A stretch of 64,000 bases of DNA from Alphaproteobacteria bacterium (lineage in GTDB: Bacteria > Pseudomonadota > Alphaproteobacteria > UBA9219): positions 1 through 64,000 of the forward strand of contig JAGWIK010000003.1 in NCBI GenBank assembly GCA_028866275.1. The letters are read 5' to 3'. A program made the position numbers and the translations under genes. The notes below the pieces were generated by a model. It made no database searches, was not told the DNA's origin, and worked only from the letters and a program-made list of their open reading frames with translations. Below, piece after piece: positions 284 to 52,808 of this stretch (its first letter is position 1; every line of letters starts with the position of its first letter).

Positions 284-2178
284 ATGCAATCCTCGCTGTC
301 CCGCCTTTACGATATCTTTGTCCACACGCTGGAAACGAATCCGGAAGTTTCACGCCCAAATAAAAAAATTCCGCTTCGAGATATTGTGATTAATAGCTCG
401 CCATTTTACAGTGCCGCGGGTGCTGCAATAATTGACGGGGTGCTGGCTGGCGCCGGAAATGAAGAACCCGCGATAATCATTCAACGGCATGTGCGTGACC
501 TGCGCATTAAAGAGTTCCAGTCAGAACATTTCTTTACAGGCATGTTGTATGCGGCTTGCGCCGCACGACTGCTCGAGAAACAACAACCCCACCAAGCCTT
601 GCGCATGGCCGAACAGGCGCTGGGTTACAATTCGCTCGATCTATTTCCCCAAGAATCGGTCATCGAAGCCAATCACCGGCTTACCCCCGAAGTTCAGGGA
701 ATCGACAGCGTCGATGCCTGCTTAAAACGCGTTTCTGCAAAGCCCCCTTTAACTGGTTCGAAACCAACCCTGCAGGCGATCTATACGCTTGTTGTCCCAG
801 CTTCCTGCCCACCTCAATCGGCACGCTCGACGACGTCGAGCGCAACGGAATCGAAGCCCTGCGCAATGGCCCCATATCCGTCAAGCTGCGCGAGTCCATT
901 CTTGATGGCAGTTTCCGCTACTGCAGCAAGATGTATTGCACGCATATTACCAACAAAACTTTGATGTCGCGCGAAGAAGGGCTGAAATGGCTTGAAACAG
1001 CTGGAGCCTGGCCCGAACAAGTCATGTTAGCGCATGACCAGTCTTGCAACCTGTCTTGTCCCTCTTGCCGCAAAGAGCGCATCGTCATCCCTAAAAACGA
1101 GCAGGATCATTTTGATGCCTTGACCGGCAAGGTTCTTATCCCCTTGATGGCTCACGCTGAAAACGTGCGCATAACCGGTAGCGGCGATCCATTCGGGGGC
1201 ATTCATTTCCGCAATTTGCTGAAAAATTATTGCCGCACCACGCAGGACAAAAAACGCACAATCGTTTTGCAAACAAATGGCATCCTGTGTGACCGCAGGG
1301 CCTGGGACGATATCGGCCTGCATGGCCATGTCAAGGAAGTCTATGTTTCCATCGACGCCTCGACCGAAGCGACTTATAACATCGTGCGCCGCGGCGGTGA
1401 TTTCGCGCGACTGAAGGAAAACATGGCATTTCTTTCAGAATTCCGGCATCGCCGCGAGTTCAACAATCTCATGCAAAGTTTTGTCGTTCAGGCGCGCAAT
1501 TTCCGTGAAATGCCCGATTTCGTCCGCATGGGATTGGATTGGGGCGCCGATACCATCGAATTTACCCTCATTCGTAATTGGAACACGTTCAGTGTCGAAG
1601 AATTCGACATGCACAATATTGCGTCCCTCAACCATCCTGTCCACGACGCGTTTCTGAGAATGCTTGACGACCCCATTTTTAACCACCCGTCCGTTAACCT
1701 GTCCGGCATCCGGCATTTGCGTCCCGCACCGCCCGATATCGAAGAAATGACGACGGATACCCCACAGCGTCCACCCTCCAATATTTTACTGCAACTTTAT
1801 ATACTTTTTCTCCGTACGTTGGTGATATCCACCGTCATGGTCGCAGAATCAGCGTCAGGGCTTAATAATAGTGAATCTTTCTATGAAGTCGCAAAGCTTC
1901 AGGCGGATATTTTACTACAGATCGGCGGCTGGAAAGATCTGGTGCGTTTCGTGCGCCTGGGAATCGACATTAACAATATAACCCAACACGCTCGTATGTT
2001 CGCGGGTGCCGTCTATGCTGCCTGTGCGGCACGCGCAGGGGAACTGGGCTGTGTTCATCTGGCCGTACAGCTGGCCAATGAGGCTCTTTTCTGCAATCCG
2101 CGCGATATTTTTGCACGATCAATTGCGAATAAAACCCAGCAAACAGACATGTCGCCCTCGTCAAAATCGACCCATTAG
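284..2178 (+). pseudogene. Radical SAM/SPASM protein, copy 1, with a 1-base frameshift and a duplicated C-terminal module
   Basis: This is the first of three paralogous radical SAM genes. The ATG at 284 aligns with the starts of the other two copies (MQSSLSRLYDIF against MNEVLPRLHELF). The reading frame is intact through the N-terminal helical module to TTA AAA at 722-727. There one A is missing relative to the paralogs (AAAACG instead of AAAAACG), and the homologous protein continues in the -1 frame as KTRFCKAPF. The second frame carries a SPASM-like Cys region, the radical SAM motif CNLSCPSC and a TGSGDPF motif. After the core, about 125 residues (from about 1765) resemble the N-terminal module again (MFAGAVYAACAARAGE), which the other copies lack. 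The break may be a real mutation, an assembly error, or -1 frameshifting on the A run. If unbroken it would be an iron-sulfur, SAM-cleaving enzyme of unknown substrate. Confidence 0.65.
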
Positions 2179-2201
2179 CCCTGATGCGTGGAAAAAATAT
2201 A

Positions 2202-3110
2202 ATGCCCCAATCCGCCCCTATCCCTCATGACCATGACACGCTGGATCGCATAACGCGCATTCTTGAACGCTATCTGGTCGAGCAGGAAACGTCGCCCAAC
2301 CTTGTCGCCAATATCGAGGATATTAATTTTGCGGTCAGCCCATCTTGGCTGGCGCCTATTTTTACCAGCAAACAAATTCATGAAGAAGATTTCCGCGTGC
2401 TGGGGCATTTTAAAAATCCGAATGCCTTGACGCTGGATATCGGTGCCCAATTCGGTCATTCGGTCTGTTCGATGCGCTCGGCCGGATGCGAAACTGGCAT
2501 TCTGTCGTTCGAACCGCAATTATGGATGCGCCCGTGCCTATCGGAAATCGCCCGTCTGGACGGGTATCGCCACGATTATCGCATTATGGCGCTGGGCGCG
2601 GCCAATGGAGTGTTGGATTTCGTCACACCGGTTCTGAACGGCGTGGCTATTACGGGGTTGACGTCGGCAAACCCATCGTTGGAAGGTTTTGCCGAAAATT
2701 TGTATATTCATCAACGCACCTATATGGCCGATACGCCGTTTTCGTCGCTGACTTTTTATCGCTTTTCGTCGCCTGTCAGCACGCTGGACGCCGCCCTGAA
2801 AAGCGAAGCTCCGTTCCTGATTCCAACCGACACTATCGCCGCGATAAAAATTGACACCGAAAATCTTGAAGCCGATGTTTTGTTCGGTGCACAGGAAACG
2901 CTGCGCCGCCATCGCCCCCTTATCATGATAGAAGGGGGCAATCGCCTGCACGCCGTGCGCGATATTTTGCATGAACTGGGTTATCTGTCGGCCTTACGCG
3001 ACGCTGATCGCCTTGTCCTCAGCGACGCACCTTCACATGGTCCAAATGGTTTTTTTGTCCATAGCGATCGTGTGGATGAATACGAAACTGCAGGAATTAT
3101 AACCCGTTGA
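2202..3110 (+). CDS. FkbM family methyltransferase
   Basis: A protein of about 302 residues with the FkbM SAM-dependent methyltransferase signature: a Rossmann motif LDIGAQFGHS near the N-terminus, FEPQ at the end of the next strand, and IAAIKIDTENLEADVLFGA followed by RPLIMIEGG in the C-terminal half. FkbM enzymes usually O-methylate sugars or small molecules. The gene lies 23 bases after radical SAM copy 1 and 79 bases before copy 2 on the same strand, so it likely shares their pathway. ATG 2202 was chosen because a purine-rich GTGGAAA lies upstream; ATG 2184 in the same frame would add six residues. The substrate cannot be deduced. Confidence 0.85.
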   Translation: MPQSAPIPHDHDTLDRITRILERYLVEQETSPNLVANIEDINFAVSPSWLAPIFTSKQIHEEDFRVLGHFKNPNALTLDIGAQFGHSVCSMRSAGCETGILSFEPQLWMRPCLSEIARLDGYRHDYRIMALGAANGVLDFVTPVLNGVAITGLTSANPSLEGFAENLYIHQRTYMADTPFSSLTFYRFSSPVSTLDAALKSEAPFLIPTDTIAAIKIDTENLEADVLFGAQETLRRHRPLIMIEGGNRLHAVRDILHELGYLSALRDADRLVLSDAPSHGPNGFFVHSDRVDEYETAGIITR

Positions 3111-3189
3111 GACCCGGCCAATTCACGGGTGACTGGCAGGCCGCCCCCGTGCTACCTCTTGTCCTTTCATGATTGATGGATGTCGCGCT

Positions 3190-4617
3190 ATGAATGAAGT
3201 CTTGCCCCGCCTGCACGAACTGTTCCTGCAAACGCTGAGAAACTATCCAGAAACCGTGGCGTGGAACGGCGAGAACATCAATAATTCCGGGATTTTCTAT
3301 CAATCCGCCCACGACCTGTTCGAAACCTTGCTGCAAAACGGGGACAACGGCGCCTTTATCGCCAAGGTCAAAGAAACGACCTATGCCAGCAACCTGACGC
3401 CGGACACGCATACCTTTATCGGTGCCGTTTATGCAGGATCCGCCGCGCATTTGATGGCGCGCGGCGATGCCGTCGCCGCGCGACGCCTGGCCGAAGAAGC
3501 CGTTTCATATAGCCAGTTCGATTTGTTTGCCCAAAACACGATCATCAAGGCCAACCACGCGATCAACCCCGCCGCCCGCAGTCTTGAAGAAACCGAAGAA
3601 TGGCTGAAAACACGTTTCTGCATGCGCCCTTTCACGATGCTGGAAACGGCGTCGACGGGCGAGGTTTACCGTTGCTGCCCGTCTTATCTGCCGGTTTCAA
3701 CCGGCACGTTCGCGGATGTCGAGAAAAACGGTCTTGAAGCCCTGCTCGATTCACCGACCGCACAGGCGTTGCGCAATTCCATCCTCGACGGCAGCTTTCG
3801 TCATTGCAGCAAGCTTTATTGCCCGTTTATCGGTTCGCGCACCCTAATGTCGCGCGAAGAGGGGTTGGAAAAAATTCAGGCCGCCAGCCTTTATCCCGAA
3901 GAAGTTTTCTTCAGCCACGATGTGTCGTGCAATCTGTCATGTCCGTCGTGCCGCACACACAAGATGGTCATTCCTAAAGATCAACAGGACAAATTCGACG
4001 CGCTGTCGGAAAAAATGCTGGTGCCATTAACCAGGCGCGCCAAATCCGTCAGCATTTGCGGCAGCGGCGACCCCTTCGCCAGCATTCATTTCCGCAATTT
4101 GTTGATCAATTACTGTCGCGCCGCGACGAAAAAGGAACGCAAGCTCGCCCTGCAAACAAACGGCGTTTTGTGCGATAAAAAAGCCTGGGATAACATTGGC
4201 CTGTACGGGCATGTATCGAGGGTGGCGGTATCCGTTGATGCCGCGCAGGAATCCACCTACGCCATCGTCCGACGCGACGGTAATTTTGGCCGTATGCGCG
4301 AAAACATGCGTTTTTTATCGGATTTGCGTCGTACGGGTGAATTCGACTCTCTGACGATCTGTTTCGTCGTGCAAGCATTGAATTTTCGTGAAATGCCTGA
4401 TTTCGTGCGCTGGGGCGCGGAACTGGGCGTTGACGCTGTCGTATTCAGTCAATTACGCAATTGGAGTACTTTCTCGCCCGCAGAATATAACAATCATAAT
4501 GTCTTGTCGCGCGCACATCCCGAACATGGCGCATTGCTTGATGTCCTGAAAGACCCCCTTCTGGATTCGCCATTTGTTAACATGAGCGATGTCGGCAACC
4601 TGCGGGCAGCAGCGTAA
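3190..4617 (+). CDS. Radical SAM protein with N-terminal SPASM-like domain, copy 2
   Basis: This 475-residue intact copy has three parts. Residues 1-130 are a helical, TPR-like module. Residues 140-215 form a SPASM-like region with Cys144, Cys162, Cys163, Cys206 and Cys211. Residues 240-475 are the radical SAM core with the CxxxCxxC cluster ligands at Cys247, Cys251 and Cys254 (CNLSCPSC) and a GGE-like CGSGDPF at 290-296. Standard SPASM proteins carry the auxiliary cluster domain after the core, so the order here is permuted. The start ATG at 3190 matches the N-terminus of copy 3; an ATG at 3169 is possible but not supported by homology. The enzyme should reductively cleave SAM; its substrate is unknown. 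It sits between an FkbM methyltransferase gene and copy 3. Confidence 0.88.
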   Translation: MNEVLPRLHELFLQTLRNYPETVAWNGENINNSGIFYQSAHDLFETLLQNGDNGAFIAKVKETTYASNLTPDTHTFIGAVYAGSAAHLMARGDAVAARRLAEEAVSYSQFDLFAQNTIIKANHAINPAARSLEETEEWLKTRFCMRPFTMLETASTGEVYRCCPSYLPVSTGTFADVEKNGLEALLDSPTAQALRNSILDGSFRHCSKLYCPFIGSRTLMSREEGLEKIQAASLYPEEVFFSHDVSCNLSCPSCRTHKMVIPKDQQDKFDALSEKMLVPLTRRAKSVSICGSGDPFASIHFRNLLINYCRAATKKERKLALQTNGVLCDKKAWDNIGLYGHVSRVAVSVDAAQESTYAIVRRDGNFGRMRENMRFLSDLRRTGEFDSLTICFVVQALNFREMPDFVRWGAELGVDAVVFSQLRNWSTFSPAEYNNHNVLSRAHPEHGALLDVLKDPLLDSPFVNMSDVGNLRAAA

Positions 4618-4721
4618 ATTTTTGTAGAGCAACGGCATTTTATACTGTAACGAATGGGTTCCACCTCGTGGCGCAGGCGTGATAGAGTCCATCGTCGCAT
4701 ATGTCCTGTCGAGCAACCGCC

Positions 4722-6143
4722 ATGCATAAAATTCTGCCCCCTCTCCACGAAATCTTCCAGAAAATTCTGCAAGAACATCCGGAAACCGTGTCGTGGAAAG
4801 GCCAGAACATCAACAATTCCGGCTTGTTCTGCGCGGCGGCGGCGGACATGGCCGACGCGTTGCTGCAGGATTGCGAAAAAGACGGTTTCATCCCCGCCCT
4901 GCGGCAGGCGGTTTATGATGAAAAACTGGAACCCAATTCGTTCATCTTTATCGGCGCGCTGTACGCCTTGGCCGCGGCGCGCATGATGGAACGCGGCGAT
5001 GCCGCCTTTGCCCAGCGGTTGGCTGAGGAAGCTATCGCCTATAGCCAGTTCGACATTTTTGCGCAGAATATCGTGTTGAAGGCCAACCATGCGCTCGACC
5101 CCGCGACGCGCAGTTTCGAGGATACCGAAGCATGGCTGAAAACGCGTTTCTGCATGTTTCCCTTCACCATGCTGGAAACGACGACCAGCGGCGAATTCTA
5201 CCGTTGCTGTCCTTCCTATGTCCCGATGCCCATCGGCACGATGGACGCGCCCGACCTGCAATCGGTTTTGAATTCCCCCGCGGCGCAGGCCATCCGTGAA
5301 TCCATCCTCGACGGCAGTTTCAAATATTGCAGCAAATTGCAATGCCCGGTCATTGGCAGCCGCAGCCTGATGTCGCGCGAGGAGGGGCTGGCGAAACTTG
5401 CCGAACTCGGCGAATATCCTGAAGAAGTGACATTCAGCCACGATGCGTCGTGCAACCTGTCATGCCCGTCATGCCGCACGCATCGCGTCGTTATCCCCAA
5501 GGACGAACAGGACAAGTTTGACTCCCTGTCCGAACGGCTTCTGGTGCCGTTAATGAACCACGCCAAACGCATCAGCATCTGCGGCAGCGGCGATCCGTTT
5601 GCCAGCATCCATTTCCGCAATTTGTTGATCAATTACTGCAAGAACGCGTCCGAAAAAGCGCGCAAACTGGCATTGCAAACCAACGGCGTTCTGTTAGATC
5701 GCAAGGCATGGGACGCGGTCGGGTTAGACGGCCATGTTAAAGAAATCCTGATATCGATCGACGCCGCGACCGAGGAAACTTATGCCGTCGTGCGCCGCGA
5801 CGGCAATTTCAAGCGGTTGCATGAAAATCTGCGCTTTCTGTCCGATATGCGCCGCGCCGGCGCGTTCGATATTTTCACCACACGTTTCGTCGTGCAGCAG
5901 ATCAATTTCCGCGAAATGCCCGAATTCGTGCGTCAGGGCAAGGCGCTGGGCGTCGATTGCATTCAATTCAGCCAGCTGCGCAACTGGGGCACGTTCAGCC
6001 CCGAAGATTACGCGGGGCAAAGCATCACCGCCCGCGAACATCCGGAACATCAGGCGTTTCTGGACATGCTCAAGGACCCGATTTTCGACGACCCCATCGT
6101 CTGGCTAGGCAATATTGACAATTTCCGCGTCAGGGCGGCGTGA
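4722..6143 (+). CDS. Radical SAM protein with N-terminal SPASM-like domain, copy 3
   Basis: A 473-residue close paralog of the preceding gene, colinear over its whole length. It has the N-terminal helical module (1-130), SPASM-like cysteines at 144, 162, 163, 203 and 208, the radical SAM triad Cys244/248/251 in CNLSCPSC, and CGSGDPF. ATG 4722 gives an N-terminus (MHKILPPLHEIF) that aligns with copy 2; ATG 4701 in the same frame lacks homology support. No precursor-peptide gene is visible in the short gaps between copies, so a ribosomal-peptide pathway is not favoured. The last 39 bases overlap the 3' end of the convergent glycosyltransferase-FkbM gene. Confidence 0.88.
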   Translation: MHKILPPLHEIFQKILQEHPETVSWKGQNINNSGLFCAAAADMADALLQDCEKDGFIPALRQAVYDEKLEPNSFIFIGALYALAAARMMERGDAAFAQRLAEEAIAYSQFDIFAQNIVLKANHALDPATRSFEDTEAWLKTRFCMFPFTMLETTTSGEFYRCCPSYVPMPIGTMDAPDLQSVLNSPAAQAIRESILDGSFKYCSKLQCPVIGSRSLMSREEGLAKLAELGEYPEEVTFSHDASCNLSCPSCRTHRVVIPKDEQDKFDSLSERLLVPLMNHAKRISICGSGDPFASIHFRNLLINYCKNASEKARKLALQTNGVLLDRKAWDAVGLDGHVKEILISIDAATEETYAVVRRDGNFKRLHENLRFLSDMRRAGAFDIFTTRFVVQQINFREMPEFVRQGKALGVDCIQFSQLRNWGTFSPEDYAGQSITAREHPEHQAFLDMLKDPIFDDPIVWLGNIDNFRVRAA

Positions 6144-7973
6144 CACCGGCGTCAGAACGACGGTAACCCCGTCGCCGGCCGTGTCGACGTCGCAGCCATT
6201 TTCCTGCGCCCAGCGCCTGACCGTCTCGGCTTCCGCGGCGTCGGCACGGATAAACAGCAATGGCGCATATTTCTCGATAACGCCCCTGATCGCGGCCAGC
6301 GTTTCCACCGGTTCCACGGTATCTATATTAACAGCGTTTACACACATATCGCCGCCGATCAGTTGCGCCAGAGGCGCAAAGGGCACGGTGGCCCCGGGCG
6401 TCACGCCGTCGCTTTCGTCGAACACGGCCTTGCTGCGCCCCGATGCCGGCCGCAAAACGCCATAGCCCGGCGCCGCGTCCGGCGCATAACCCAGAAAACG
6501 CATATCGACGATATCCTGCATTTTGTTGCGAAGAACATTGAGTTTTAATTGTTCGATAAAATCAGGATCCCATTCGATGGCGATGACTTTGCGCGCGCGG
6601 CCTGTCGCCGCGACAAAAAGCGCGAATTCACCGCTACGGCTGCCGATATCGAGCCACACGGATTCTTCGGGAATACGCGCGGCAAGTTCCGTCACACCGT
6701 CGGCGACGGGCAAACGCAAAGCAACCGCGTTTTCGGGTTGATAGAATTGCAAAACCCTGTCGCCACAAACGGCCTGCCGTGTCGCGGCGGTGCGGGCGCG
6801 TTGCGCGTCGATGACCGTTTGCGGCGAGATCAGCGCATCGGCGGCACGGGCCAGCCGGTCGCGATAGGCGTGCAGAACCTTATCCCCCGCGCTTTGCATC
6901 AAGGTCAGCAAGCGCGGGTTTTCCGCAATCATTTTCAGATAACCGACAACCTCCGTCACCGACGCGCAGCGGTGAAAATGATAGGGCGACAACAATCCTT
7001 CGCTGCCGGCGGCGGTCATCACGATAGGAATATGATATTGCAGGGCCTCGACCGATTTTATTTTCAGCCCCGTGCCATCTTCGACCGGGTTGACCATCAC
7101 ATCCATCGCGCGATAAATGTCGCCAAGATTATCGCAAGCCCCTAAAAGCTTGATGAAGGGCGGCGCCACGCCCCGAAAGGCCGTACAAATATTTCCGGCG
7201 ATGCACAAATCGATTTGTGACGACACGCTGGTCATGCGTACCAGCGCATCGACCAGAAGCGTGGCTGTGCGCACGTTCACGGCATTGTCCGACCCGATAA
7301 AGCCCACGCGCAATTTGCGGCCGGCCGGCAATGGCCGTGGCGCAAAGGGGATATCGCACGGCGCATGTTGAAGCGTGCGCACGATTTTATCGGTCAGGCC
7401 GCGGAAATAGATTTCTTCGCCACATTGCAAGGCGATATTGATATCGGCGCGGTCAAGCCCGCGGCCTTCGTCCGCAGGCGTCACGGAAAAGAACGACGGC
7501 GGCATGCCCTGCCTGGCCAACCGCATCATGCGGTCGGACATCATGTCGTGGGTTTGTTGAATCTTGATGACGGTGTCGGGCACAGCGTCGAAGGCTTTGC
7601 TCATCCAGATATAATTGCCAAGCATGACGTCGAACGGATCGCGTTCGTATATAGTCCTGATTAAATCGTCGAGATCGGCCTGATACCAGGAATCAAGTTC
7701 GTAATTCAGGCCCGCGCGTTCCAGCGACACCCGCATCAGGGCGCGCGCCGTTTCCGCTTCGCGAATGGCATGATCATACATATGCAGATAAAACGCGTCG
7801 ACTTCGCGCAATGTGTCGGTGTTGTCTTTGTTGGTACAGCTTTCCTGTATCGAATAAAGGAACGACACGCGATGCCCGGCGGCGCGAATTTGCCGAACCA
7901 TGGCTAGAATGAGGCTTCGATTGCCTGCGGTCGTAGGAAATAACGGGGTCGGGCTTACGATAAGGTAATGCAT
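6105..7973 (-). CDS. Glycosyltransferase (GT4-like)-FkbM methyltransferase fusion
   Basis: A two-domain protein of about 622 residues. The N-terminal part (about 1-400) begins MHYLIVSPTPLFPTTAGNRS, has the GT-B-type strand LRVGFIGSDNAVN near residue 245, and has a nucleotide-sugar-binding segment VNPVEDGTGLKIKSVEALQ near residue 310. The C-terminal part (about 420-622) has VWLDIGSRSGEF, a SAM-binding motif, and AVNIDTVEPVETLAAI, typical of FkbM methyltransferases. It may transfer a sugar and methylate it, or couple the two steps on one glycan. The start at 7973 has AGAAGG-like SD sequence (AGAAGG at 7980-7985); an upstream in-frame start at 8045 lacks family support. It is transcribed toward the radical SAM array and overlaps its 3' end. 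Confidence 0.85.
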   Translation of the reverse strand: MHYLIVSPTPLFPTTAGNRSLILAMVRQIRAAGHRVSFLYSIQESCTNKDNTDTLREVDAFYLHMYDHAIREAETARALMRVSLERAGLNYELDSWYQADLDDLIRTIYERDPFDVMLGNYIWMSKAFDAVPDTVIKIQQTHDMMSDRMMRLARQGMPPSFFSVTPADEGRGLDRADINIALQCGEEIYFRGLTDKIVRTLQHAPCDIPFAPRPLPAGRKLRVGFIGSDNAVNVRTATLLVDALVRMTSVSSQIDLCIAGNICTAFRGVAPPFIKLLGACDNLGDIYRAMDVMVNPVEDGTGLKIKSVEALQYHIPIVMTAAGSEGLLSPYHFHRCASVTEVVGYLKMIAENPRLLTLMQSAGDKVLHAYRDRLARAADALISPQTVIDAQRARTAATRQAVCGDRVLQFYQPENAVALRLPVADGVTELAARIPEESVWLDIGSRSGEFALFVAATGRARKVIAIEWDPDFIEQLKLNVLRNKMQDIVDMRFLGYAPDAAPGYGVLRPASGRSKAVFDESDGVTPGATVPFAPLAQLIGGDMCVNAVNIDTVEPVETLAAIRGVIEKYAPLLFIRADAAEAETVRRWAQENGCDVDTAGDGVTVVLTPVSRRPDAEIVNIA

Positions 7974-8135: not shown

Positions 8136-8801
8136 ATGACTTTGCCGCCCCTGACGCTGCTTGAAGAGTTTTTACTGCTGGCCATCGACGACCAGACGGG
8201 ACAGATGCATCCCCTGCCCGCCAGCGTGCTTGATTGCGCCTGTGCCGGCGCGGTTTTAATGGATCTGACGCTGCGCAACCGCGTCGACAACGATCTGCGG
8301 GATATGTTCGTCACCGATGCCACGCCGACCGGCGACGATATCCTTGACCCCGCCCTGCAACTTATGGCTCTGGCCCCGGTGTTGACCCCGCACCCTATCG
8401 CCTATTGGCTGCGGCAGGTCGCGGACGAAGGCGCCGCTTTGCAGGAAAAAGCCCTGCGGCGGCTGGAACAACGGGGCATCATCCGCCGCCAGAACCGCAC
8501 TATTTTCTGGGTTTTCGGCGCGCGCCGTTATCCTCTGGTCGAAGACAAAGAAATGCGGGAAGTCAAATTGCGCATTCTGGGCGCGGTTCTGGGCGACGAC
8601 GTGCCCGCGCCGCGCGACGTCATGATGACGGGACTGGCGCAGGCTTGCGGGTTGTTTCGCTATATTCTCAGCGCGAACGAATTAACATCGGCGACGCCGC
8701 GCATCGCGCAGATCAGCCGCATGGACCTGATCGGACAAGCCGTCGCCAATGGCGTCGGCGACATCGGGGCTGCGATCGCTTCGGCATCGGGACTCAGATA
8801 A
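8136..8801 (+). CDS. GPP34 (Golgi phosphoprotein 3-like) family protein
   Basis: A 221-residue protein starting MTLPPLTLLEEFLLLAIDD with a later L-rich helical body, matching the bacterial GPP34 family, named after eukaryotic GOLPH3, which binds phosphatidylinositol 4-phosphate and glycosyltransferase tails. Family hallmarks seen are the LLEEFLLLAIDDQTG start, a DLTLRNRV strand, and an LEQRGIIRRQ segment. Bacterial members are soluble and often of unknown role. It has no signal peptide. The gene ends 24 bases before the SNase-like membrane protein on the same strand, so the two are probably co-transcribed. Confidence 0.85.
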   Translation: MTLPPLTLLEEFLLLAIDDQTGQMHPLPASVLDCACAGAVLMDLTLRNRVDNDLRDMFVTDATPTGDDILDPALQLMALAPVLTPHPIAYWLRQVADEGAALQEKALRRLEQRGIIRRQNRTIFWVFGARRYPLVEDKEMREVKLRILGAVLGDDVPAPRDVMMTGLAQACGLFRYILSANELTSATPRIAQISRMDLIGQAVANGVGDIGAAIASASGLR

Positions 8802-40929: not shown

Positions 40930-42141
40930 ATGGGTTCCGCCTTGTCTTCTGCCATCCCCCCTGTCGGCGTCAGCTGGGTTTTGTCGTCCATTTCCGGTTA
41001 CGGAATCTATGGCGTGCAGATTTTGCTGCAATATCTGCGGCGCGGCGGCGATCCCAAAGATTTCATTGTCACCAGCCAGCCGTCGCTGACCACCTTGCCG
41101 CCGCTGGCAATGGAGCGCATCAACCCCATTTTCGACCGCGCCAGCAAAATCCATGTGTTCCTTAAGGAGAATCCCAAGGAAATTCTCAGCTTCCGGCACG
41201 GCATTCTGCATGGCTGCAGCAGCGATTTTTCCGGTTTCGCCGGACAGGACCGCATCTGGGGCCAGCCCAATGTCGCCTGCGCCGCCATCGAACATCTGGT
41301 CTGCACGCCGCACGGCCGCAATATCGCCAAGAATTACCATATGTTCGTCGCTATTTCGCGCTGGAACGCCGATTACCTGAAAAGCCTCGATGTCGGGCCG
41401 GTTCATTTGTGCCATCAGGGCATAGACCGCAGCCTGTTTCATCCCGCGCCGGGGTCGGATTTATATCGCGACCGTTTTGTCATTTTTTCCGGCGGCAAAT
41501 TCGAATATCGCAAGGGGCAGGATATCGTCACCGCCGCGTTCAAGATATTCCATGCCCGCCATCCCGACGCCTTGCTGGTCACCTGTTGGCAAAATCTGTT
41601 GCCGCCGGATGCGTCGGCCTTTGCGTTGGCCGGGTTATGCGACGGCGTGCCTGAAACCGCGCCCGATTATGGTCTTCGCATCACGCCGTGGCTGTTGAAA
41701 CAAGGTCTGCCGCGCGACAGTTTTGTCGATCTGCCCTTCACCCACAATCTGTTGATGCCCACCGTGTTGCGCGATTGCGACATGGCGGTATTCCCCAATC
41801 GCTGCGAAGGGGGCACCAATCTGGTGGCGATGGAGGCGATGGCCTGCGGCGTGCCGACTTTCGTATCGTACAATACGGGGCAAAAAGATTTGGTCGATCT
41901 GATCGGCTGCGGCGCGTTGCGCGTCCAGAAACCGGTCCGATCGACGCCTGCGATGCAAACGGTCGAGGATTGGGGCGAAAGCGATGTCGAGGAAACCGTC
42001 GCCGCGATGGAACAAGTTTACGCCAGCCGGGGTGCGGCGAAAAAAGCCGCGCTTGCCGTCGCCGACACCGTGACGCAGAATTGGGATTGGGGCGGACTGA
42101 ACGAAAAATTGCTACGCGTCGTTTGCGACGGAAAGGCCTGA
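40930..42141 (+). CDS. Glycosyltransferase, GT4-like (GT-B)
   Basis: A 403-residue GT-B glycosyltransferase. The N-terminal region has SSISGYGIYGVQILLQYLRRGG, FVAISRWNADYLKS ends the first domain, then FIFSGGKFEYRKGQDI-like segment begins the C-terminal domain, and EGGTNLVAMEAMACGVPTFV gives the E-x7-E donor-binding motif. It is the first of three adjacent glycosyltransferases directly upstream of flagellin, all on the same strand, so it is a candidate for flagellin glycosylation or another surface glycan. The start ATG 40930 lies 91 bases divergent from rnd. Confidence 0.88.
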   Translation: MGSALSSAIPPVGVSWVLSSISGYGIYGVQILLQYLRRGGDPKDFIVTSQPSLTTLPPLAMERINPIFDRASKIHVFLKENPKEILSFRHGILHGCSSDFSGFAGQDRIWGQPNVACAAIEHLVCTPHGRNIAKNYHMFVAISRWNADYLKSLDVGPVHLCHQGIDRSLFHPAPGSDLYRDRFVIFSGGKFEYRKGQDIVTAAFKIFHARHPDALLVTCWQNLLPPDASAFALAGLCDGVPETAPDYGLRITPWLLKQGLPRDSFVDLPFTHNLLMPTVLRDCDMAVFPNRCEGGTNLVAMEAMACGVPTFVSYNTGQKDLVDLIGCGALRVQKPVRSTPAMQTVEDWGESDVEETVAAMEQVYASRGAAKKAALAVADTVTQNWDWGGLNEKLLRVVCDGKA

Positions 42142-42145
42142 GATC

Positions 42146-42901
42146 ATGAACAAACCCTTTATCGTGGTCGGCACGCCGTGCTTCGGCGGCATGGTGTCGC
42201 AGGATTACACGATGTCCTTGCTGAATGTGCAGGCGGCGTCGGCGCGCGAAGGTTTCGATTTGGCGACCCTATTGCTGGGCAATGATGCGTTGATCACACG
42301 CGGGCGCAGCGCCATTGTCGCTAAATTCATGGACGCGCCGCAGGCCACGCATTTGCTGTTCGTCGATGCCGATATCACTTTTTCCGTCGAGCAGGTCGTG
42401 CGCTTGCTAAAGGCCGACAAGGATTTCGTCGCGGGCATGTATCCGGCCAAAATCATCGACTGGACGCAGCTGGCGCAGCGCTTCGGCCGCACGCCGGAAT
42501 CACTGGACGAAGCCGGGCTGGCCTATGTCGGCGCTTTGTGCGAAGGTGCCGACGCCAGACGCGAAAACGGCTTTGCCACGGGCATTTATGCGGGAACAGG
42601 GTTTCAATTGATCAAACGCGGGGTATTTGAACGCATGTTCGCCGCGTACCCCGAAACAAAATATCAGGCGTTGCACGCTTTCCCGCGCCCGGCAAAGCCC
42701 AGCGACCATCTTTATGCCCTGTTCGACTGCATGATCGACCCCGATACCGGTGTTTATCTGAGCGAGGATTATGCGTTCTGCCGTCGCTGGCGCGCCATCG
42801 GCGGCGAAATATGGCTCGACCTTGACAGCAAGCTTGTCCATACGGGGCCTTACAGCTTTCGCGGCAATGCCGGCCCGCGTTTTCAGAGGGGCGCGGTATG
42901 A
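42146..42901 (+). CDS. GT-A fold glycosyltransferase (family 2/ANP1-like)
   Basis: A 251-residue GT-A glycosyltransferase. It starts KPFIVVGTPCFGGMVSQDYTMS and holds ATHLLFVDADITFSVEQVV with DAD as the metal-binding site, FATGIYAGTGFQLIKRGVF and YLSEDYAFCRRWRAIGGEIW. It resembles the Anp1/mannan polymerase-like group. Its stop overlaps the start of the next, related glycosyltransferase (ATGA), and it lies 4 bases after the GT4-like gene. The acceptor is unknown; location argues for flagellin. Confidence 0.85.
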   Translation: MNKPFIVVGTPCFGGMVSQDYTMSLLNVQAASAREGFDLATLLLGNDALITRGRSAIVAKFMDAPQATHLLFVDADITFSVEQVVRLLKADKDFVAGMYPAKIIDWTQLAQRFGRTPESLDEAGLAYVGALCEGADARRENGFATGIYAGTGFQLIKRGVFERMFAAYPETKYQALHAFPRPAKPSDHLYALFDCMIDPDTGVYLSEDYAFCRRWRAIGGEIWLDLDSKLVHTGPYSFRGNAGPRFQRGAV

Positions 42902-43500
42902 CGGAAACATTGGTTGCGGTCGGCATTCCGTCCGGCGATCTTGTCCACGCCGATTTCGCCATGTCTTTGGCGATGATGTGCCAGAATCCCGGCGCGCAGA
43001 TGTTTTTGCTGAATGCGCGGTCGTCGCTGGTCGCGCTGGGCCGCAACCAATGCGCGGGCGGCGCGCAAATCATGAAAGCGTCGCATTTATTGTTTCTGGA
43101 CACCGACATGGTGTTTCCCGTCGACACGATGAAACGCCTTCTGGCCCACGATAAGGACATCGTCGGGGCGACTTATTCCCAGCGCATGCCACCTTTCCAC
43201 CCCCTGACCGTTACCGAGGACGGCGAACACGCCCATGTCACGGCAGGATTGCAGCGGGTCAGGCTGCTGCCAACCGGATGCATGTTGATCAGCACATCCG
43301 TATTCGACGCGCTGGAAAAACCCTATTTCAATCTGGTTGCCGAAGGCGACCAGCTGCGCGGCGAGGATTATTATTTTTGCGAAAAAGCCCGCGCCGCGGG
43401 TTTCGACATTTGGTGCGACGGCGACCTGTCGGCCCAATTAGGTCATGTCGGGCAAAAAATCTATCGCATCGGAGATATTGCGCCGCAAAAAATTATATAG
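42898..43500 (+). CDS. GT-A fold glycosyltransferase, shorter paralog
   Basis: A 200-residue shorter relative of the preceding protein. It has ETLVAVGIPSGDLVHADFAMS, ASHLLFLDTDMVFPVDTM (DTD metal site), GATYSQRMPPFHP, LLPTGCMLISTSVFDAL and EDYYFCEKARAAGFDIWCDG. It overlaps the preceding gene by 4 bases. It probably works with it on the same glycan. It ends 126 bases before the sigma-54 promoter of the flagellin gene. Confidence 0.85.
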   Translation: MTETLVAVGIPSGDLVHADFAMSLAMMCQNPGAQMFLLNARSSLVALGRNQCAGGAQIMKASHLLFLDTDMVFPVDTMKRLLAHDKDIVGATYSQRMPPFHPLTVTEDGEHAHVTAGLQRVRLLPTGCMLISTSVFDALEKPYFNLVAEGDQLRGEDYYFCEKARAAGFDIWCDGDLSAQLGHVGQKIYRIGDIAPQKII

Positions 43501-43626
43501 GCTTATCAAGCAATGTGCCCAAAATGGCTAGGCAATTATTGCCGGTTTTTCCCTCGATGGGAAAATATTGCCGGAAATTTTTGCCGTGCCCCCAACCGAA
43601 TCAAAAGGTTAACAGCCGCCATTTCA

Positions 43627-43643
43627 TGGCACGCTTCTGGCAT
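43627..43643 (+). promoter_or_regulatory. Sigma-54 (RpoN) promoter of flagellin
   Basis: TGGCACGCTTCTGGCAT matches the -24/-12 consensus TGGCAC-N5-TTGCA except one position (TGGCA for TTGCA). The spacing of GG and GC is exact. It lies 105 bases before the flagellin ATG, giving a leader of about 90 bases. Alphaproteobacterial flagellin genes often use sigma-54. Confidence 0.75.
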
Positions 43644-43705
43644 ATGTATAACCGCCGTTAAGTCTTAGTTTACGTCTTGAACTTAAACAGGACGGCATCT
43701 CAACC

Positions 43706-43742
43706 CGCAGAAGGAGTCTGCGTTCAACTCTTGAAAGGAGTT
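43706..43742 (+). promoter_or_regulatory. Flagellin 5' leader hairpins covering the ribosome binding site
   Basis: Two adjacent small hairpins precede the flagellin start. CGCAG (43706-43710) pairs with CTGCG (43718-43722) with a loop AAGGAGT that mimics a Shine-Dalgarno. AACTC (43726-43730) pairs with GAGTT (43738-43742), whose arm contains the real AAGGAG (43735-43740). The arrangement could let FlbT or another factor control translation or decay of flagellin mRNA. Confidence 0.55.
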
Positions 43743-43747
43743 CTAAC

Positions 43748-44575
43748 ATGTCTATTGGTGATATCGCCCTCAGTGCGTCAGCCCGCGCCAACCTCGCGGC
43801 GTTGACCAACACGACCAACCTTCTTGCCCAAACCCAGAATGCTCTGGCGACCGGCAAAACGGTTAACTCGGCGTCAGACAACGCTGCGGCGTATTTTGCG
43901 TCGCAGGGCTTTTTGAACAGCGCCAACCAGCTCAACACCGTCAAGAGCAGTCTGTCGACCGCCCTTGAAACGGTGAACTCGACCGACAACTCGATCTCGG
44001 ACGTGACCAGCGTCATCAACCAGCTTCAAGGTCTTGCGACCCAGGCGCTGGGCACGACGAACACGGACACCCGTGCGGGTCTGGCGTCGCAGTTCAACGC
44101 GCTGACGACCCAGCTTGATCAGTTGGTCAACGACGCGACCTTCAACGGTACCAACCTGCTGAACAGCACGGGGAATAGCCTTGTCGTCTACTTCGACGCA
44201 AGCAACGCCACCTCGCTGACCATCACCGGCGTCAACATCACGTCGGCGGGCCTGTTGGGTTCGAACAACACCGCCACATCTTCGTGGTCAACGTCGGCGT
44301 CGATTCAGCAATCGCAGTCGTATTTGTTGACGGCGTTGTCGACCCTGACCACGGACGCGTCAAACTTCGGTGGTAACGCGACCCTGATCCAGACACGTCA
44401 GGACTTCACGTCCAACCTGATCACGTCGTTGACCAACGCGTCAAACGATCTGGTTCAGGCCGACTCGAATGTCGAAGGCGCGAACCTGCAGGCCCTGCAG
44501 GCTCAAGACCAGCTCGGCATTACGTCGCTGGGCATTTCCGGTACGCTGGCGCAAGCCATCTTGCGTATCTTGTAA
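43748..44575 (+). CDS. Flagellin
   Basis: A 275-residue flagellin of the short Rhodospirillales type. The N-terminal D0/D1 part (SIGDIALSASARANLAALTN, ALATGKTVNSASDNAAAYF) and the C-terminal D0/D1 (TRQDFTSNLITSLTNASNDL, QALQAQDQLGITSLGISGTL) are conserved, and the variable outer part (about 130-190) is short and rich in Ser, Thr and Asn, good acceptors for O-linked sugars. It has no Cys. AAGGAG precedes the ATG by 7 bases. It has its own sigma-54 promoter and terminator, and is followed by flbT and flaF. Three glycosyltransferases lie upstream. Confidence 0.95.
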   Translation: MSIGDIALSASARANLAALTNTTNLLAQTQNALATGKTVNSASDNAAAYFASQGFLNSANQLNTVKSSLSTALETVNSTDNSISDVTSVINQLQGLATQALGTTNTDTRAGLASQFNALTTQLDQLVNDATFNGTNLLNSTGNSLVVYFDASNATSLTITGVNITSAGLLGSNNTATSSWSTSASIQQSQSYLLTALSTLTTDASNFGGNATLIQTRQDFTSNLITSLTNASNDLVQADSNVEGANLQALQAQDQLGITSLGISGTLAQAILRIL

Positions 44576-44585
44576 GCCTAAGGGG

Positions 44586-44612
44586 AAGGGCGGGCTTCGG
44601 CCCGCCCTTTTT
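44586..44612 (+). terminator. Rho-independent terminator after flagellin
   Basis: AAGGGCGGGC (44586-44595) and GCCCGCCCTT (44600-44609) form a 10-pair stem with a TTCG tetraloop, followed by a short T-run. It is a strong intrinsic terminator, so flbT, 38 bases further on, may be read only partly from the flagellin promoter. Confidence 0.92.
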
Positions 44613-44649
44613 CCTCTTTATCTGTATTTCTCTCGAAGGAGTCGGGAAC

Positions 44650-45072
44650 ATGCCATTGAAAATACGCGTCAAGCCCGAAGGCAAAATTTTCGCCGGCGGC
44701 GCCGTTTTAAAGAATGTGGGCACACGCCCTGCCGATCTTCTGGTTTTGTCCGACAGCCCCGTTTTGCGCGAAGACTATATGATGAATATAGATCGCAGTT
44801 CCGAGTCCGACGTCACCAATGTTTATTTCCTGCTGCAGGTCATCTACCTGTTTCGCGGCAAAGACAAACCGATGGACACGCTGGTGATCGACACCGTCAA
44901 AAGCTTTGCCAGGCTTTACCCCCAATATGCCGGCGATGTTGAGAAAATCATCGCCCATCTGGACGCCAAGGAAACATTCAAGGCGTTGCGCATCGCGCAC
45001 AGCATGCTGGAACAGCATGAAAAATCGACACCGCCCGCCGCAATGCCCGCGGCCGTCGAAGCTCACGCATAA
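44650..45072 (+). CDS. flbT: Flagellar biosynthesis repressor FlbT
   Basis: A 140-residue FlbT. The start MPLKIRVKPEGKIFAGGAVLKN and the segment VLREDYMMNIDRSSESDVTNVY match the family, followed by a helical part with LYPQYAGDVEKIIAHLD. In Caulobacter, FlbT binds the 5' leader of flagellin mRNA and promotes its decay. It sits immediately after the flagellin terminator. It is followed by flaF after 26 bases. Confidence 0.9.
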   Translation: MPLKIRVKPEGKIFAGGAVLKNVGTRPADLLVLSDSPVLREDYMMNIDRSSESDVTNVYFLLQVIYLFRGKDKPMDTLVIDTVKSFARLYPQYAGDVEKIIAHLDAKETFKALRIAHSMLEQHEKSTPPAAMPAAVEAHA

Positions 45073-45098
45073 CGGGACAAAAAACCAGGGAGGCCATA

Positions 45099-45572
45099 AT
45101 GTCAGGCGACAAAGTCAATGTTTACCACCAGAATCAAAAAACCACGCTGGGCACCACCGGCAACAGCCGCGACACGGATTCGCGCGCATTGGCGGCATGT
45201 GCGCGCCGTCTGGAAGAAGCACGTGATAATCTGGCCGCCAATTTGAAGTCAAAAGACGCGTTGAAGGAGTATGGCGACGCCATCCGCCATAATCAACGGC
45301 TGTGGACGATTTTTCAGGTCGCGGTCGCCGATCCGCAGAACCCGTTGCCACACGATTTGAAGCTGACCCTTTTGAATCTGGGCCGTTATGTCGATAAAAC
45401 CAGCTTCCGCGCCACCGGCAAATACGAACCCGGTTTGATCGACAGCTTGATCGAAATCAACCGCATTATCGCGTCCGGCCTCAACAAACCCGTCAACGCC
45501 GACGCACTGATGCCGTCCACTGGCGCCATCGGAACCACCGACACCCCAACATCATTGATGACGTCAGCGTAA
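45099..45572 (+). CDS. flaF: Flagellar biosynthesis regulator FlaF
   Basis: A 157-residue FlaF-type helical protein. Segments RALAACARRLEEARDNLAAN, AIRHNQRLWTIFQVAVADP and LPHDLKLTLLNLGRYVDKTS match the family. In Caulobacter, FlaF opposes FlbT and supports flagellin translation and secretion. The flbT-flaF order is as expected. Its last 9 bases overlap the convergent TPR-glycosyltransferase gene. Confidence 0.9.
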   Translation: MSGDKVNVYHQNQKTTLGTTGNSRDTDSRALAACARRLEEARDNLAANLKSKDALKEYGDAIRHNQRLWTIFQVAVADPQNPLPHDLKLTLLNLGRYVDKTSFRATGKYEPGLIDSLIEINRIIASGLNKPVNADALMPSTGAIGTTDTPTSLMTSA

Positions 45573-46820
45573 CCGGGAAGAAAAAGACCCAAGTTCGGCG
45601 GCAACGCGGCCGATAACCGCAGCCCAGTCGCCGCGCCGGTCTTGCCTGAAAAGACGCGCGGTCGGATACCACGGGCTGTCGGTGCGGCCGATCATCCAGC
45701 GCCAATCGGCGCTGAACGGCAAAAGCACCCAGACATCTTTACCCAGACTGCCCGCCAGATGCGCCATCGCGCTGTCGACCGTAATGACAAGATCGAGCGC
45801 CGAAACGGCAGCGGCGGCATCGGCGAAGTCGGCAAATTCCTGGCCCCAATCCATCATGCCGCTGTCGCGCAATGCCTCCTTGTCACGATCCGGCACAAGT
45901 TTTTGCAGGCTGACCCAGCTTACGTTGCGCAGCCGGAAAAGCGGCGCGAGCTGCGCCAACGCCAGCGACCGATTATGGTCGTTGCCGTGCGTGGAACGCC
46001 CCGCCCAGGCCAGCCCGATGCGGCGCGTGGCAGCATCAGGCAACCGCTGACGATAAAAATCGATGCGCGCCGCATCGGCGTGAAGATAGGGCACGTCGGC
46101 GGGTATGGTTTCGACCGATGTGCCCATCGCCGCAGGAATATCCATCAACGCGGCGTGAAAATCGAAATCCGGCACGGTATCGCCCAGCACGATCACGGTA
46201 ATGCCGGGGATGCCCCGCATAAGGCCGGCCAAGGCAGGCGGTACGCCGACAATCACCCGCGCCGCCTGCGCCACAAGAACGGGCAGATAACGCGCCATTT
46301 GCAAAGAGTCGCCGAAGCCTTGCTCGGCGTACAAAAACAAAACCTTGCCGTTCAGATTCTCGCCGCGCCAATCGGGTTTATCGAAAGAACGGCGAAACCT
46401 GTCATAACCGGGGATGCGCCAGCGCGCCGAGAAACTTTGCCAACCCACGGCATAATCGCCCAAGGCCAGCGCCGCGATGGATTCGTTCAGCATAGGCACC
46501 GGGTCGTCAGGCGCCAAAGACCTAGCGATCGCGAATCCCTGCCTTGCCTGCGCGATGAGCCCAAGCTCGCTGAGACAGAAAGCGAAATTGACATAAGCAT
46601 TGGCGAATGCCGGGTTGAGCGTAATCGCGGTGCGATAGAATCCCAAGGCTTCCTCGAATCGCCCGAGTTTAGCCAGCGCGACGCCGCAATTATATGGCGG
46701 ATTGGGGTCCTGAGGCACGGCGGCGGCCAGCATGCGGAATATTTCCGCCGCTTCGGCATAATGCCCGTCGGCGAAAAGCGTTTGCGCCCGTAAATTGTCG
46801 GCTTCGTCATTCTGCGTCAT
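45564..46820 (-). CDS. TPR-containing glycosyltransferase-like protein (short form)
   Basis: A 418-residue protein with about three N-terminal TPR repeats (DGHYAEAAEIFRMLAAAVPQ, YNCGVALAKLGRFEEALGFY, YVNFAFCLSELGLIAQA) and a C-terminal GT-B-like domain (about 150-418) with LFLYAEQGFGDSLQMARYLP and VITVDSAMAHLAGSLGKDVW. It is related to the larger protein at 58882-60786. Such TPR-glycosyltransferases lie beside flagellin genes in many motile alphaproteobacteria. It is the last gene downstream of flgE-flgK-flgL and the methyltransferase-like gene, so flagellin or hook-protein glycosylation is the likely role. Confidence 0.85.
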   Translation of the reverse strand: MTQNDEADNLRAQTLFADGHYAEAAEIFRMLAAAVPQDPNPPYNCGVALAKLGRFEEALGFYRTAITLNPAFANAYVNFAFCLSELGLIAQARQGFAIARSLAPDDPVPMLNESIAALALGDYAVGWQSFSARWRIPGYDRFRRSFDKPDWRGENLNGKVLFLYAEQGFGDSLQMARYLPVLVAQAARVIVGVPPALAGLMRGIPGITVIVLGDTVPDFDFHAALMDIPAAMGTSVETIPADVPYLHADAARIDFYRQRLPDAATRRIGLAWAGRSTHGNDHNRSLALAQLAPLFRLRNVSWVSLQKLVPDRDKEALRDSGMMDWGQEFADFADAAAAVSALDLVITVDSAMAHLAGSLGKDVWVLLPFSADWRWMIGRTDSPWYPTARLFRQDRRGDWAAVIGRVAAELGSFSSRLR

Positions 46821-46967
46821 GCGTTCGAAAATATATCATTGGAATTCTGGCGCAAGCCCGAACCATGCAACGGCACGGGGTGGAACGATATGCCGCCAAT
46901 GCGGATGCGGCGCCACCCGAAGGGCGACGCCGCGTTATCGAACCGCTTTTCTACATCGTCCAAAGCG
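46821..46967 (-). other. Gap between methyltransferase-like and TPR-glycosyltransferase genes
   Basis: A 147-base gap with no gene. It holds a possible stem-loop at about 46909-46931 (GGCGCCACCC facing GGGCGACGCC), which pairs fully only on the - strand with G-U pairs. This could act as an attenuator or processing site inside the flagellar operon. Confidence 0.4.
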
Positions 46968-48461
46968 TCATGCCGCTTCGAGCATGCCGTAAGCATACCA
47001 TTGCGGCAGCGATTGACCGACAATATCGCGCACCATTTCCTGCACAGCCTCGGGCGTTGGCGTGGGCATGGGCAGAATAGCCGATGCCTGACCCGTTTCG
47101 GCAAGGCGGCGCAATTCCGGCATCAAAGCCGACACAGAATTCGCCAAACCGGCGCGATTCAACGCCTGCATCACCAAGGCTTCGCGCGCCGTCACTTTGA
47201 CGCCGCAGCCCAGCACGGGCGACGCCATCCAGACGTCGTCATTGGTCACGCTTGTTTTGTCGATATAGCGGTTGAAACTGCCGACAAAGCGCGGCTGCGC
47301 CACGCTGGCGGTATTCGTCGCCGCCCGTTTGCCGCGCATCGGTACGGCGATGCCGCACGCCACAAGGATTTGGATCGCGGCGATAACCTTGTCCGCGTTT
47401 TCGCCTTGCCCCGACGGGTGCGACAGGAAATCGCCGACGCCGACAGGCAGCACAGCCATAAGATCGATAAGCTTGGTATAAAGCGGCGACGACAGATCAA
47501 GGGTTTTGCCTTGCGCCGCAAAGGAGGACGGAACCGCATCGCGGGGCATCGTAATGCCATAAGCGAAACCGCCGAACAATTCCGCCGCGTTGGAAGAAAG
47601 GGTGAAAGGCGGTTTTACCCAGATGTCTGACCGAACCGTACGGTCCAACGCCAGATCTTTAATCGGTTCATACAGAACATGGTCGCGGCAACGTACCACC
47701 AGTTCCTGCGCGTCGGCGGGAACGGCCAGTTCGACATAGTTCGACGTCAGCTGCGCATCGCCCGCATAAGCCATGCCACGGCCCGTCATCGCGACCTTGG
47801 TGTCAAACGTCATCGACGTCGCGGCACCTTGGGCAAAGAGGGCGAAGAATTCATCCGGCGTTCCCTTGACGATGGAGTCTTTCAGTTTGGCATCGATGTC
47901 GGGATGGCGCGACAAATAACCCGTCGCCAGCTTGCGGATTTCCAGCAGGAAGGTTTGTTTCTGGTCCGCATTCATTTCCGGCGCGAGTTCGCGCACCAGA
48001 AAACGCAGAGCGCCGCCGTCGCTGTCATAGGGTTTGTACGACGTCACCAGCAACCCGCCGGGTTTAAGGCGGTTTTGCGCCAGATCGAACAACGCCGCGC
48101 GTTCGGCGTCCGGCAAAACCGATCCGCTTTCGTCGCAGCACAGATAATCCAGCATCGACGGCAACACCGCGCCGTTGTTCAAGCGCGCCAGAATTTCGGA
48201 TATCCGGCCGGTCAGGAAAATGGCGTTGAATACGCCGCGTTGCGCCGCCAGCGTTTCCGCCGCCCGCCGCGCCGTATCGTCGGCGACGAAACCGTAAAAA
48301 CGGCCTTCGGGATTGCTGGCCGCGAGGCAGATCAGGGATTCCGGATCGACGCAAGCCGCATCGGCATAGGCAAAATCGGGCGATGCGGGGCGGAAGCTGT
48401 GGCCGCGCAACGCGGCAATAAAGCGGAGCGGCGCGGGGCTGAATGTCGATTGAGGTTTCAT
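46968..48461 (-). CDS. Methyltransferase-like protein with methyltransferase regulatory domain
   Basis: A protein of about 497 residues. The N-terminal part (FAYADAACVDPESLICLAASNPEGRFYGF) corresponds to a SAM-binding motif I of class I methyltransferases, but the GxGxG glycines are gone. A central part (about 95-260, ILARLNNGAVLPSMLDYLCCD and LVTSYKPYDSDGGALRF) matches the regulatory-domain family; the rest (about 300-497) has no clear assignment. It lies 53 bases after flgL on the same strand. The start at 48461 has AGGAAA upstream. It may be a catalytically dead accessory of flagellar modification, or have another role. Confidence 0.65.
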   Translation of the reverse strand: MKPQSTFSPAPLRFIAALRGHSFRPASPDFAYADAACVDPESLICLAASNPEGRFYGFVADDTARRAAETLAAQRGVFNAIFLTGRISEILARLNNGAVLPSMLDYLCCDESGSVLPDAERAALFDLAQNRLKPGGLLVTSYKPYDSDGGALRFLVRELAPEMNADQKQTFLLEIRKLATGYLSRHPDIDAKLKDSIVKGTPDEFFALFAQGAATSMTFDTKVAMTGRGMAYAGDAQLTSNYVELAVPADAQELVVRCRDHVLYEPIKDLALDRTVRSDIWVKPPFTLSSNAAELFGGFAYGITMPRDAVPSSFAAQGKTLDLSSPLYTKLIDLMAVLPVGVGDFLSHPSGQGENADKVIAAIQILVACGIAVPMRGKRAATNTASVAQPRFVGSFNRYIDKTSVTNDDVWMASPVLGCGVKVTAREALVMQALNRAGLANSVSALMPELRRLAETGQASAILPMPTPTPEAVQEMVRDIVGQSLPQWYAYGMLEAA

Positions 48462-48513
48462 GATGCTGTTTCCTGTTGGTGTGGCGTCGCGAAGAAAGGT
48501 CATGGCAGGTTCC

Positions 48514-51125: not shown

Positions 51126-51183
51126 CGTTGCCTCTTCTTGCCGCTGCGCGCAAGGCGCAGGGCTTTTTCATATTCAAGAAACG

Positions 51184-52512: not shown

Positions 52513-52808
52513 GAAACACCTCGCTGGCTGGTTTGCCGCTTTTGACAAAGCGGGATAATCTCACCCCTCCAATCAGCAATAGCTGTGCCAACGGTCATCA
52601 TATTGATACATATGTATTTTTTATAAATTGCTCCGCATGGCACCGCGGCAATTCCTGCCTCGCGCAAGGATGCAGCTAGGAATCTTTTGCACCCGCACAC
52701 GGCAAGACGGGATAAAACCGTCCCTAATTCCGCCCTATTTGTCGGGCTTGATGTTTTGGATCGAAGCGTTTAGCACTTAGAACCTCTCCGAAACCAAAAG
52801 GATTCCTC
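52513..52808. other. Divergent gap between flgE and the prolyl isomerase gene
   Basis: This 296-base gap contains no gene that I can support. It holds the - strand sigma-54 site for flgE (52575-52590) and, for the + strand prolyl isomerase gene at 52809, only weak promoter-like boxes. Confidence 0.6.
52575..52590 (-). promoter_or_regulatory. Sigma-54 (RpoN) promoter of the flgE operon
   Basis: On the - strand the sequence TGGCACAGCTATTGCT matches the -24/-12 consensus TGGCAC-N5-TTGCW without a mismatch. It lies about 63 bases before the flgE ATG. This indicates RpoN control of the hook operon. Confidence 0.9.

Follow-up and report, generated by a model that had tools for sequence, protein, structure and literature searches.

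The first 64 kb of one contig (JAGWIK010000003.1) in the 2.19-Mb draft genome of an alphaproteobacterium of lineage UBA9219, hereafter called the window, carry on the forward strand three paralogous genes encoding radical S-adenosylmethionine (SAM) proteins, rSAM-A, rSAM-B and rSAM-C. In all three proteins, a helical module is followed by a cysteine-bearing domain of the twitch type and only then by the radical SAM core. This twitch-first architecture is real, conserved and widespread, and it is little studied. The most probable reading (probability of about 0.6) is that these proteins are carbohydrate-modifying radical SAM enzymes belonging to an uncatalogued twitch-first family, for which we infer the substrate, the reaction and the auxiliary cluster.

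Domain Organization of the Three Paralogs

The initial annotation of this DNA described three paralogs in which a helical module and a cysteine domain precede the core. This order is indeed found alike in rSAM-A, rSAM-B and rSAM-C, and their PF04055 scores (33.3, 44.6 and 37.7 bits, respectively, for a cut-off of 29.5) place them in the radical SAM superfamily. The proteins rSAM-B and rSAM-C share 62% identity and are the only ones in the genome with SPASM-type matches. The description has to be corrected for rSAM-A, whose reading frame is interrupted: near position 725 (721-730), one frameshift of a single base cuts off its helical module from the remainder. Since the ortholog from G004, a genome of the same genus, is one continuous protein of 615 amino acids, the interruption is more likely a recent mutation or an artefact of assembly. 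Programmed frameshifting was considered and rejected, as the G004 relative is continuous and the site holds no canonical slippery heptamer. Both rSAM-A and its ortholog carry a second, C-terminal copy of the helical module. Further evidence on the nature of this module comes from a weak TPR_12 match in rSAM-A and from genuine TPRs found at the same place in a fusion protein from Verrucomicrobia.

A Twitch Domain in Front of the Core

Relatives were sought by scanning contigs of species-level genomes with an alignment of five proteins from the window and G004. This led to the identification of 130 relatives, 74 of which, from about ten phyla, were aligned. Four cysteines of the front domain (C144, C162, C206 and C211 in rSAM-B) are invariant in these 74 members, like the core cysteines C247, C251 and C254, whereas C163 is conserved in at least 90% of them. 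Such invariance indicates that the pattern is not due to chance. It consists of C144-x17-C162 (C-x12-G-x4-C), then C206-x4-C211 after a helix, and matches the arrangement of single-cluster twitch domains (PMC6231123), in which a β-hairpin has one cysteine on either side and two more come after the next helix. The SPASM motif comprises seven cysteines, CX9-15GX4C-gap-CX2CX5CX3C-gap-C (PMC6231123), whereas only CX12GX4C plus CX4C are conserved here. The front domain had been described as SPASM-like, and the Pfam SPASM profile (PF13186) does match residues 144-207 of rSAM-B above its cut-off and rSAM-C slightly below. What stands from this description is a cluster-type cysteine domain located before the core; however, this domain is a four-cysteine twitch (one-cluster type) and not a full, seven-cysteine SPASM.

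The AlphaFold2 model of the full rSAM-B has a predicted local distance difference test score (pLDDT) of 95.4 and a predicted template modelling score of 0.92; the twitch folded alone reaches a pLDDT of 96.4. In the rSAM-B model, the four invariant cysteines flank a hairpin and a helix, in line with a twitch. When the twitch model was compared with 350,542 PDB chains, the best match was with residues 163-246 of BtrN, which form its C-terminal twitch, and PqqE came fourth. The same BtrN stretch is also matched, independently of the fold, by a sequence profile, which aligns C144 and C162 with BtrN residues 169 and 187. A single-sequence search of rSAM-B against the PDB returned nothing, and profiles were required. 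Judging from sequence and model, the predicted site of the front domain very likely holds an auxiliary iron-sulfur cluster. The possibility raised at first that the Cys144-Cys211 region forms a second iron-sulfur site is thus well supported, the cluster itself being predicted.

It seems most improbable that the front domain is a structural remnant, i.e., a twitch fold devoid of cluster or binding zinc, in a single-cluster enzyme like DesII. Fold comparison reads the protein chain only, and DesII, the top match of the whole model, does combine a helical N-terminal domain with a single cluster (PMC11434129), but a remnant would not retain four cysteines at twitch ligand positions in 74 of 74 sequences, and two of these cysteines align with the BtrN residues mentioned above.

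Inverted Domain Order and Relationships with Catalogued Families

The domain order of the window family is truly inverted, since the same profiles match canonical proteins of related genomes with the core first. For example, the protein L105 of G033 has its core at residues 291-478 and its twitch at 496-561 (the twitch part being weak, about 12 bits), and a protein of G012 has its core at residues 84-254 and its SPASM domain at 311-361. The permutation that places the twitch before the core is therefore well supported. Short members of the family, of about 350 amino acids (e.g., in Candidatus Brocadia and Methanoregula), only include the twitch and the core. This indicates that these two domains are the constant part of the family and that the helical module is an addition.

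Auxiliary clusters are described as lying in C-terminal extensions of the barrel (PMC10470005), and no paper on N-terminal or permuted SPASM or twitch domains was found in the open-licence literature. The statement of the initial annotation that known SPASM proteins are always core-first fits this literature, but it does not hold for the NCBIfam family NF033640 (N_Twi_rSAM, “twitch domain-containing radical SAM protein”), which covers twitch-first enzymes. A true member of this family, L103 (332 bits), found in an order-level relative, shows the same twitch-first order and is flanked by a methyltransferase gene and a sugar epimerase-like gene. NF033640 is thus catalogued, yet uncharacterised as far as found.

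The window proteins could be plain members of NF033640 with nothing distinct. All 74 relatives match this model at E ≤ 1e-5 across twitch and core, and model positions 2-311 are matched in order by residues 141-423, which places the twitch at the N-terminal side. However, the window proteins only score 73.4, 69.6 and 52.5 bits, i.e., far below the curated cut-off of 170 and the 332 bits of the true member in a related genome. Furthermore, their family has its own core signature (e.g., CNLSCPSCR and GSGDPF), and a helical module is often added. Plain membership is therefore rather improbable; as these scores of 52-73 bits remain under the cut-off, the window family is, by profile score, a sister family to NF033640. 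Another model, TIGR04311 (rSAM_Geo_metal), is matched with 80 bits over the barrel only, and its cut-off of 400 is not reached.

Gene Neighbourhoods

Gene neighbourhoods suggest that the family is involved in sugar modification, without proving it. The 93 same-strand genes adjoining relatives include 13 glycosyltransferases of one GT-B family, seven GT-A glycosyltransferases, five sulfotransferases and four DUF6473 proteins, versus two members of that GT-B family, six GT-A and five Wzt_C among 93 genes located 5.5-10 kb off, many of them from the same loci. GT-B glycosyltransferases are thus enriched beside relatives and GT-A are not. Of 72 loci, 27 have a glycosyltransferase-like gene within 4 kb and eight have one at 6-10 kb, but the Pfam tallies are the fairer test because this count was seeded mostly with near genes and its far range is curtailed by contig ends. 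On a wider scale, the loci often resemble clusters for ABC-exported polysaccharides.

Individual loci illustrate this environment. Around the Paracoccus gene are found two glycosyltransferase genes, together with genes for a nucleotide-sugar dehydrogenase, a caspase-family protein and type VI secretion. The Manganitrophus relative is more distant (27% identity); it has near it several glycosyltransferase genes in succession, along with an ABC exporter. In the Verrucomicrobia relative, a glycosyltransferase and TPRs are fused to the twitch and the core, and a Loktanella relative has a C-terminal region with a weak, below-cut-off match to sulfotransferases. In the window itself, Pfam and TIGR matches bear out the FkbM methyltransferase reported within the array and the glycosyltransferase-FkbM fusion reported beside it. 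The modification of sugars or of a surface molecule, proposed from these two genes, gains support from the GT-B enrichment and from the glycan-related neighbours in Paracoccus and Manganitrophus. The partnership expected from the window therefore held in part: GT-B glycosyltransferases recur near relatives but FkbM is inconstant. No paper on the FkbM/SPASM/glycosyltransferase combination was found in the open-licence literature.

Two other recurrent settings were seen. In Rhodobacteraceae, Stappiaceae and Sinorhizobium (L021, L022, L024, L029, L039-L041, L115), the gene recurs with those of caspase-domain and large glycosyltransferase-like proteins, and some of these loci also adjoin VgrG/DUF4150 type VI secretion genes. 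In Brocadiales and Nitrospirota (L054, L062, L068, L072), a conserved run includes glycosyltransferases, a methyltransferase, the twitch-first radical SAM protein, DUF6473 and a sulfotransferase-like protein.

Putative Function

If these proteins act on carbohydrates, the core cluster would cleave SAM, generating a 5'-deoxyadenosyl radical that would take a hydrogen from a sugar carbon, and the auxiliary cluster would accept or pass on an electron, a role proposed for it in BtrN and anSME. The reaction could oxidise, epimerise or otherwise alter a sugar belonging to a surface polysaccharide or glycoconjugate. Docking would probably take place on the TPR-like helical module. The same glycan could also be the target of the glycosyltransferases and, in the window, of the FkbM methyltransferases, while the three rSAM copies could differ in the sugar or site that they modify.

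Several observations weigh against this reading. The fold match with BtrN is modest (Foldseek E of 0.2, Z of 4.1, 81 residues, root mean square deviation (rmsd) of 3.1). The barrel gives similar scores with the sugar-acting DesII and BlsE and with viperin and peptide maturases, so that the fold does not decide the substrate. GT-A glycosyltransferases are near relatives as often as far from them (7 versus 6), so part of the glycan signal is due to whole loci being polysaccharide clusters. The Sphingomonas branch has no glycan-type neighbours, which makes a single substrate for the entire family unlikely. Lastly, FkbM had to be rejected as a constant partner: besides the window, weak FkbM matches were found at just two related archaeal loci, and no FkbM gene lies between or beside the A and B genes of the closest relative, G004.

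These proteins could also be maturases whose helical module binds the substrate, either a ribosomal precursor or the side chain of a protein; the neighbouring glycosyltransferases would then be involved in protein glycosylation or incidental. This was one of the first proposals and it receives no support from the neighbourhoods; we consider it unlikely. Most characterised SPASM/twitch enzymes work on peptides (PMC6231123), but the gaps of the array (5, 79 and 104 bp) are too small for a precursor gene, in agreement with the initial annotation, which saw none. A precursor might be encoded away from the array. Among the small open reading frames near relatives, conservation never extends past three loci, which are closely related. 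The fold matches include SuiB and SkfB. In the full-length rSAM-B model, the N-terminal module is predicted to be all-helical, with TPR-like traits, unlike RRE, a winged helix that binds precursors. Several alphaproteobacterial relatives adjoin caspase-family and type VI secretion genes, but carbohydrate enzymes are the commonest neighbours of relatives.

Within the carbohydrate reading, one may go further, although only tentatively. Surface glycans, whether assembled or still growing, would then have their sugars modified by this large unnamed family through an undescribed radical reaction. The TPR-like module and the glycosyltransferase fusions would deliver the acceptor, and the domain order would set how the cluster faces the barrel.

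Distribution and Evolution

The family occurs in Alphaproteobacteria, Cyanobacteria, Brocadiales, Nitrospirota, Bdellovibrionota and methanogens, with a patchy presence. Of 59 genomes, two (one of them that of the window) have full-length relatives; among 385 genomes of the class, three have relatives at a strict threshold. In the maximum likelihood tree, rSAM-A, rSAM-B and rSAM-C each pair with one G004 protein (support of 98/75, 99/93 and 99/93). This indicates that the triplication is older than the split of the two species. In G004, the A and B genes are adjacent and the C gene is on another contig. The sister branch of the window and G004 proteins includes Rhodoblastus and an Acetobacteraceae metagenome-assembled genome.

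A relative carried by a Paracoccus plasmid is annotated merely as “radical SAM protein”; the family is thus easily overlooked. Searches of PHROGs only gave generic radical SAM matches, and the phage collection gave no match. Six IMG/VR contigs carry distant relatives. Four IMG/VR loci classed as viral (L097-L100) have a twitch-first radical SAM gene and, in L097, a second SPASM-first gene lies directly behind.

Other Features of the Window

Table 1. Radical SAM array of the window and adjoining genes.
Feature	Position	Strand	Evidence
rSAM-A: helical module, twitch, radical SAM core, second helical module; one frameshift	284..2178	+	Together, the two frames cover the intact G004 ortholog from end to end
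rSAM-A core motif CxxxCxxC	1045-1068	+	
rSAM-A second helical module, C-terminal	about 1780-2175	+	
FkbM-family methyltransferase, between rSAM-A and rSAM-B	2184..3110	+	PF05050 E 1.3e-8; TIGR01444 50.5 bits; both over cut-off
rSAM-B, 475 aa, intact	3190..4617	+	PF13186 residues 144-207, then PF04055 residues 246-408
rSAM-B N-terminal helical TPR-like module	3190..3594	+	Seven helices in model
rSAM-B N-terminal twitch with C144, C162, C163, C206, C211	3601..3897	+	Invariant Cys; BtrN fold and profile matches
rSAM-B radical SAM core, CxxxCxxC = C247, C251, C254	3898..4479	+	PF04055 44.6 bits; viperin, DesII, BlsE, SuiB fold matches
rSAM-C, 473 aa, intact, domain order as in rSAM-B	4722..6143	+	PF04055 37.7 bits; PF13186 20.7 bits, slightly below cut-off
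GT-B glycosyltransferase fused to FkbM-like methyltransferase domain; convergent with rSAM-C	6105..7970	-	PF13692 E 4.7e-10; TIGR01444 E 5e-7, under its cut-off

Beside the glycosyltransferase-FkbM fusion, and divergent from it, a gene (8136-8801) encodes a GPP34 (GOLPH3/Vps74-like) protein (E 2e-43). The region 40930-52548 is flagellar (flagellin and, by reading, FlbT, FlaF, FlgL, FlgK and FlgE) and adjoins genes for a GT-B glycosyltransferase, a TPR protein and a methyltransferase-regulatory-domain protein; it is possibly a flagellin glycosylation locus. A 634-amino-acid protein with many TPRs (58882-60786) has a weak C-terminal match to glycosyltransferase family 9 and recalls TPR-type protein glycosyltransferases. 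The Rfam search found nothing, and ARAGORN found one distant tRNA-Ser.

Comparison with Characterised Enzymes

Knowledge about auxiliary clusters in SPASM/twitch enzymes comes nearly entirely from proteins whose cluster domain is behind the barrel. A conserved family with the inverted order is a natural test of whether the position of the cluster in the chain matters, and, given the surface-glycan setting, its members are candidates for catalysing new radical reactions of sugars.

The whole-model fold matches of rSAM-B include DesII, viperin, BlsE, SuiB and SkfB, DesII being the best (Z of 15.4 over 265 residues). DesII, which deaminates a nucleotide sugar by radical SAM chemistry, also has an N-terminal helical domain ahead of its core, but the rmsd is 6.0, and DesII has a single cluster with no SPASM or twitch described. 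This whole-chain match was not accepted as evidence for a shared N-terminal domain.

BtrN is the 2-deoxy-scyllo-inosamine dehydrogenase, whose substrate is a sugar-like cyclitol. It has in common with the front domain of rSAM-B the twitch fold and the cysteine pattern, but its twitch follows the core and the barrel sequences are not close. The SPASM peptide maturases (SuiB, SkfB, CteB, anSME) share with the window family the radical SAM core and the first half-motif of SPASM, C-x12-G-x4-C. The window family differs from them by its inverted order, by having four conserved cysteines, as in single-cluster domains, where the maturases have seven, and by the lack of any peptide substrate seen.

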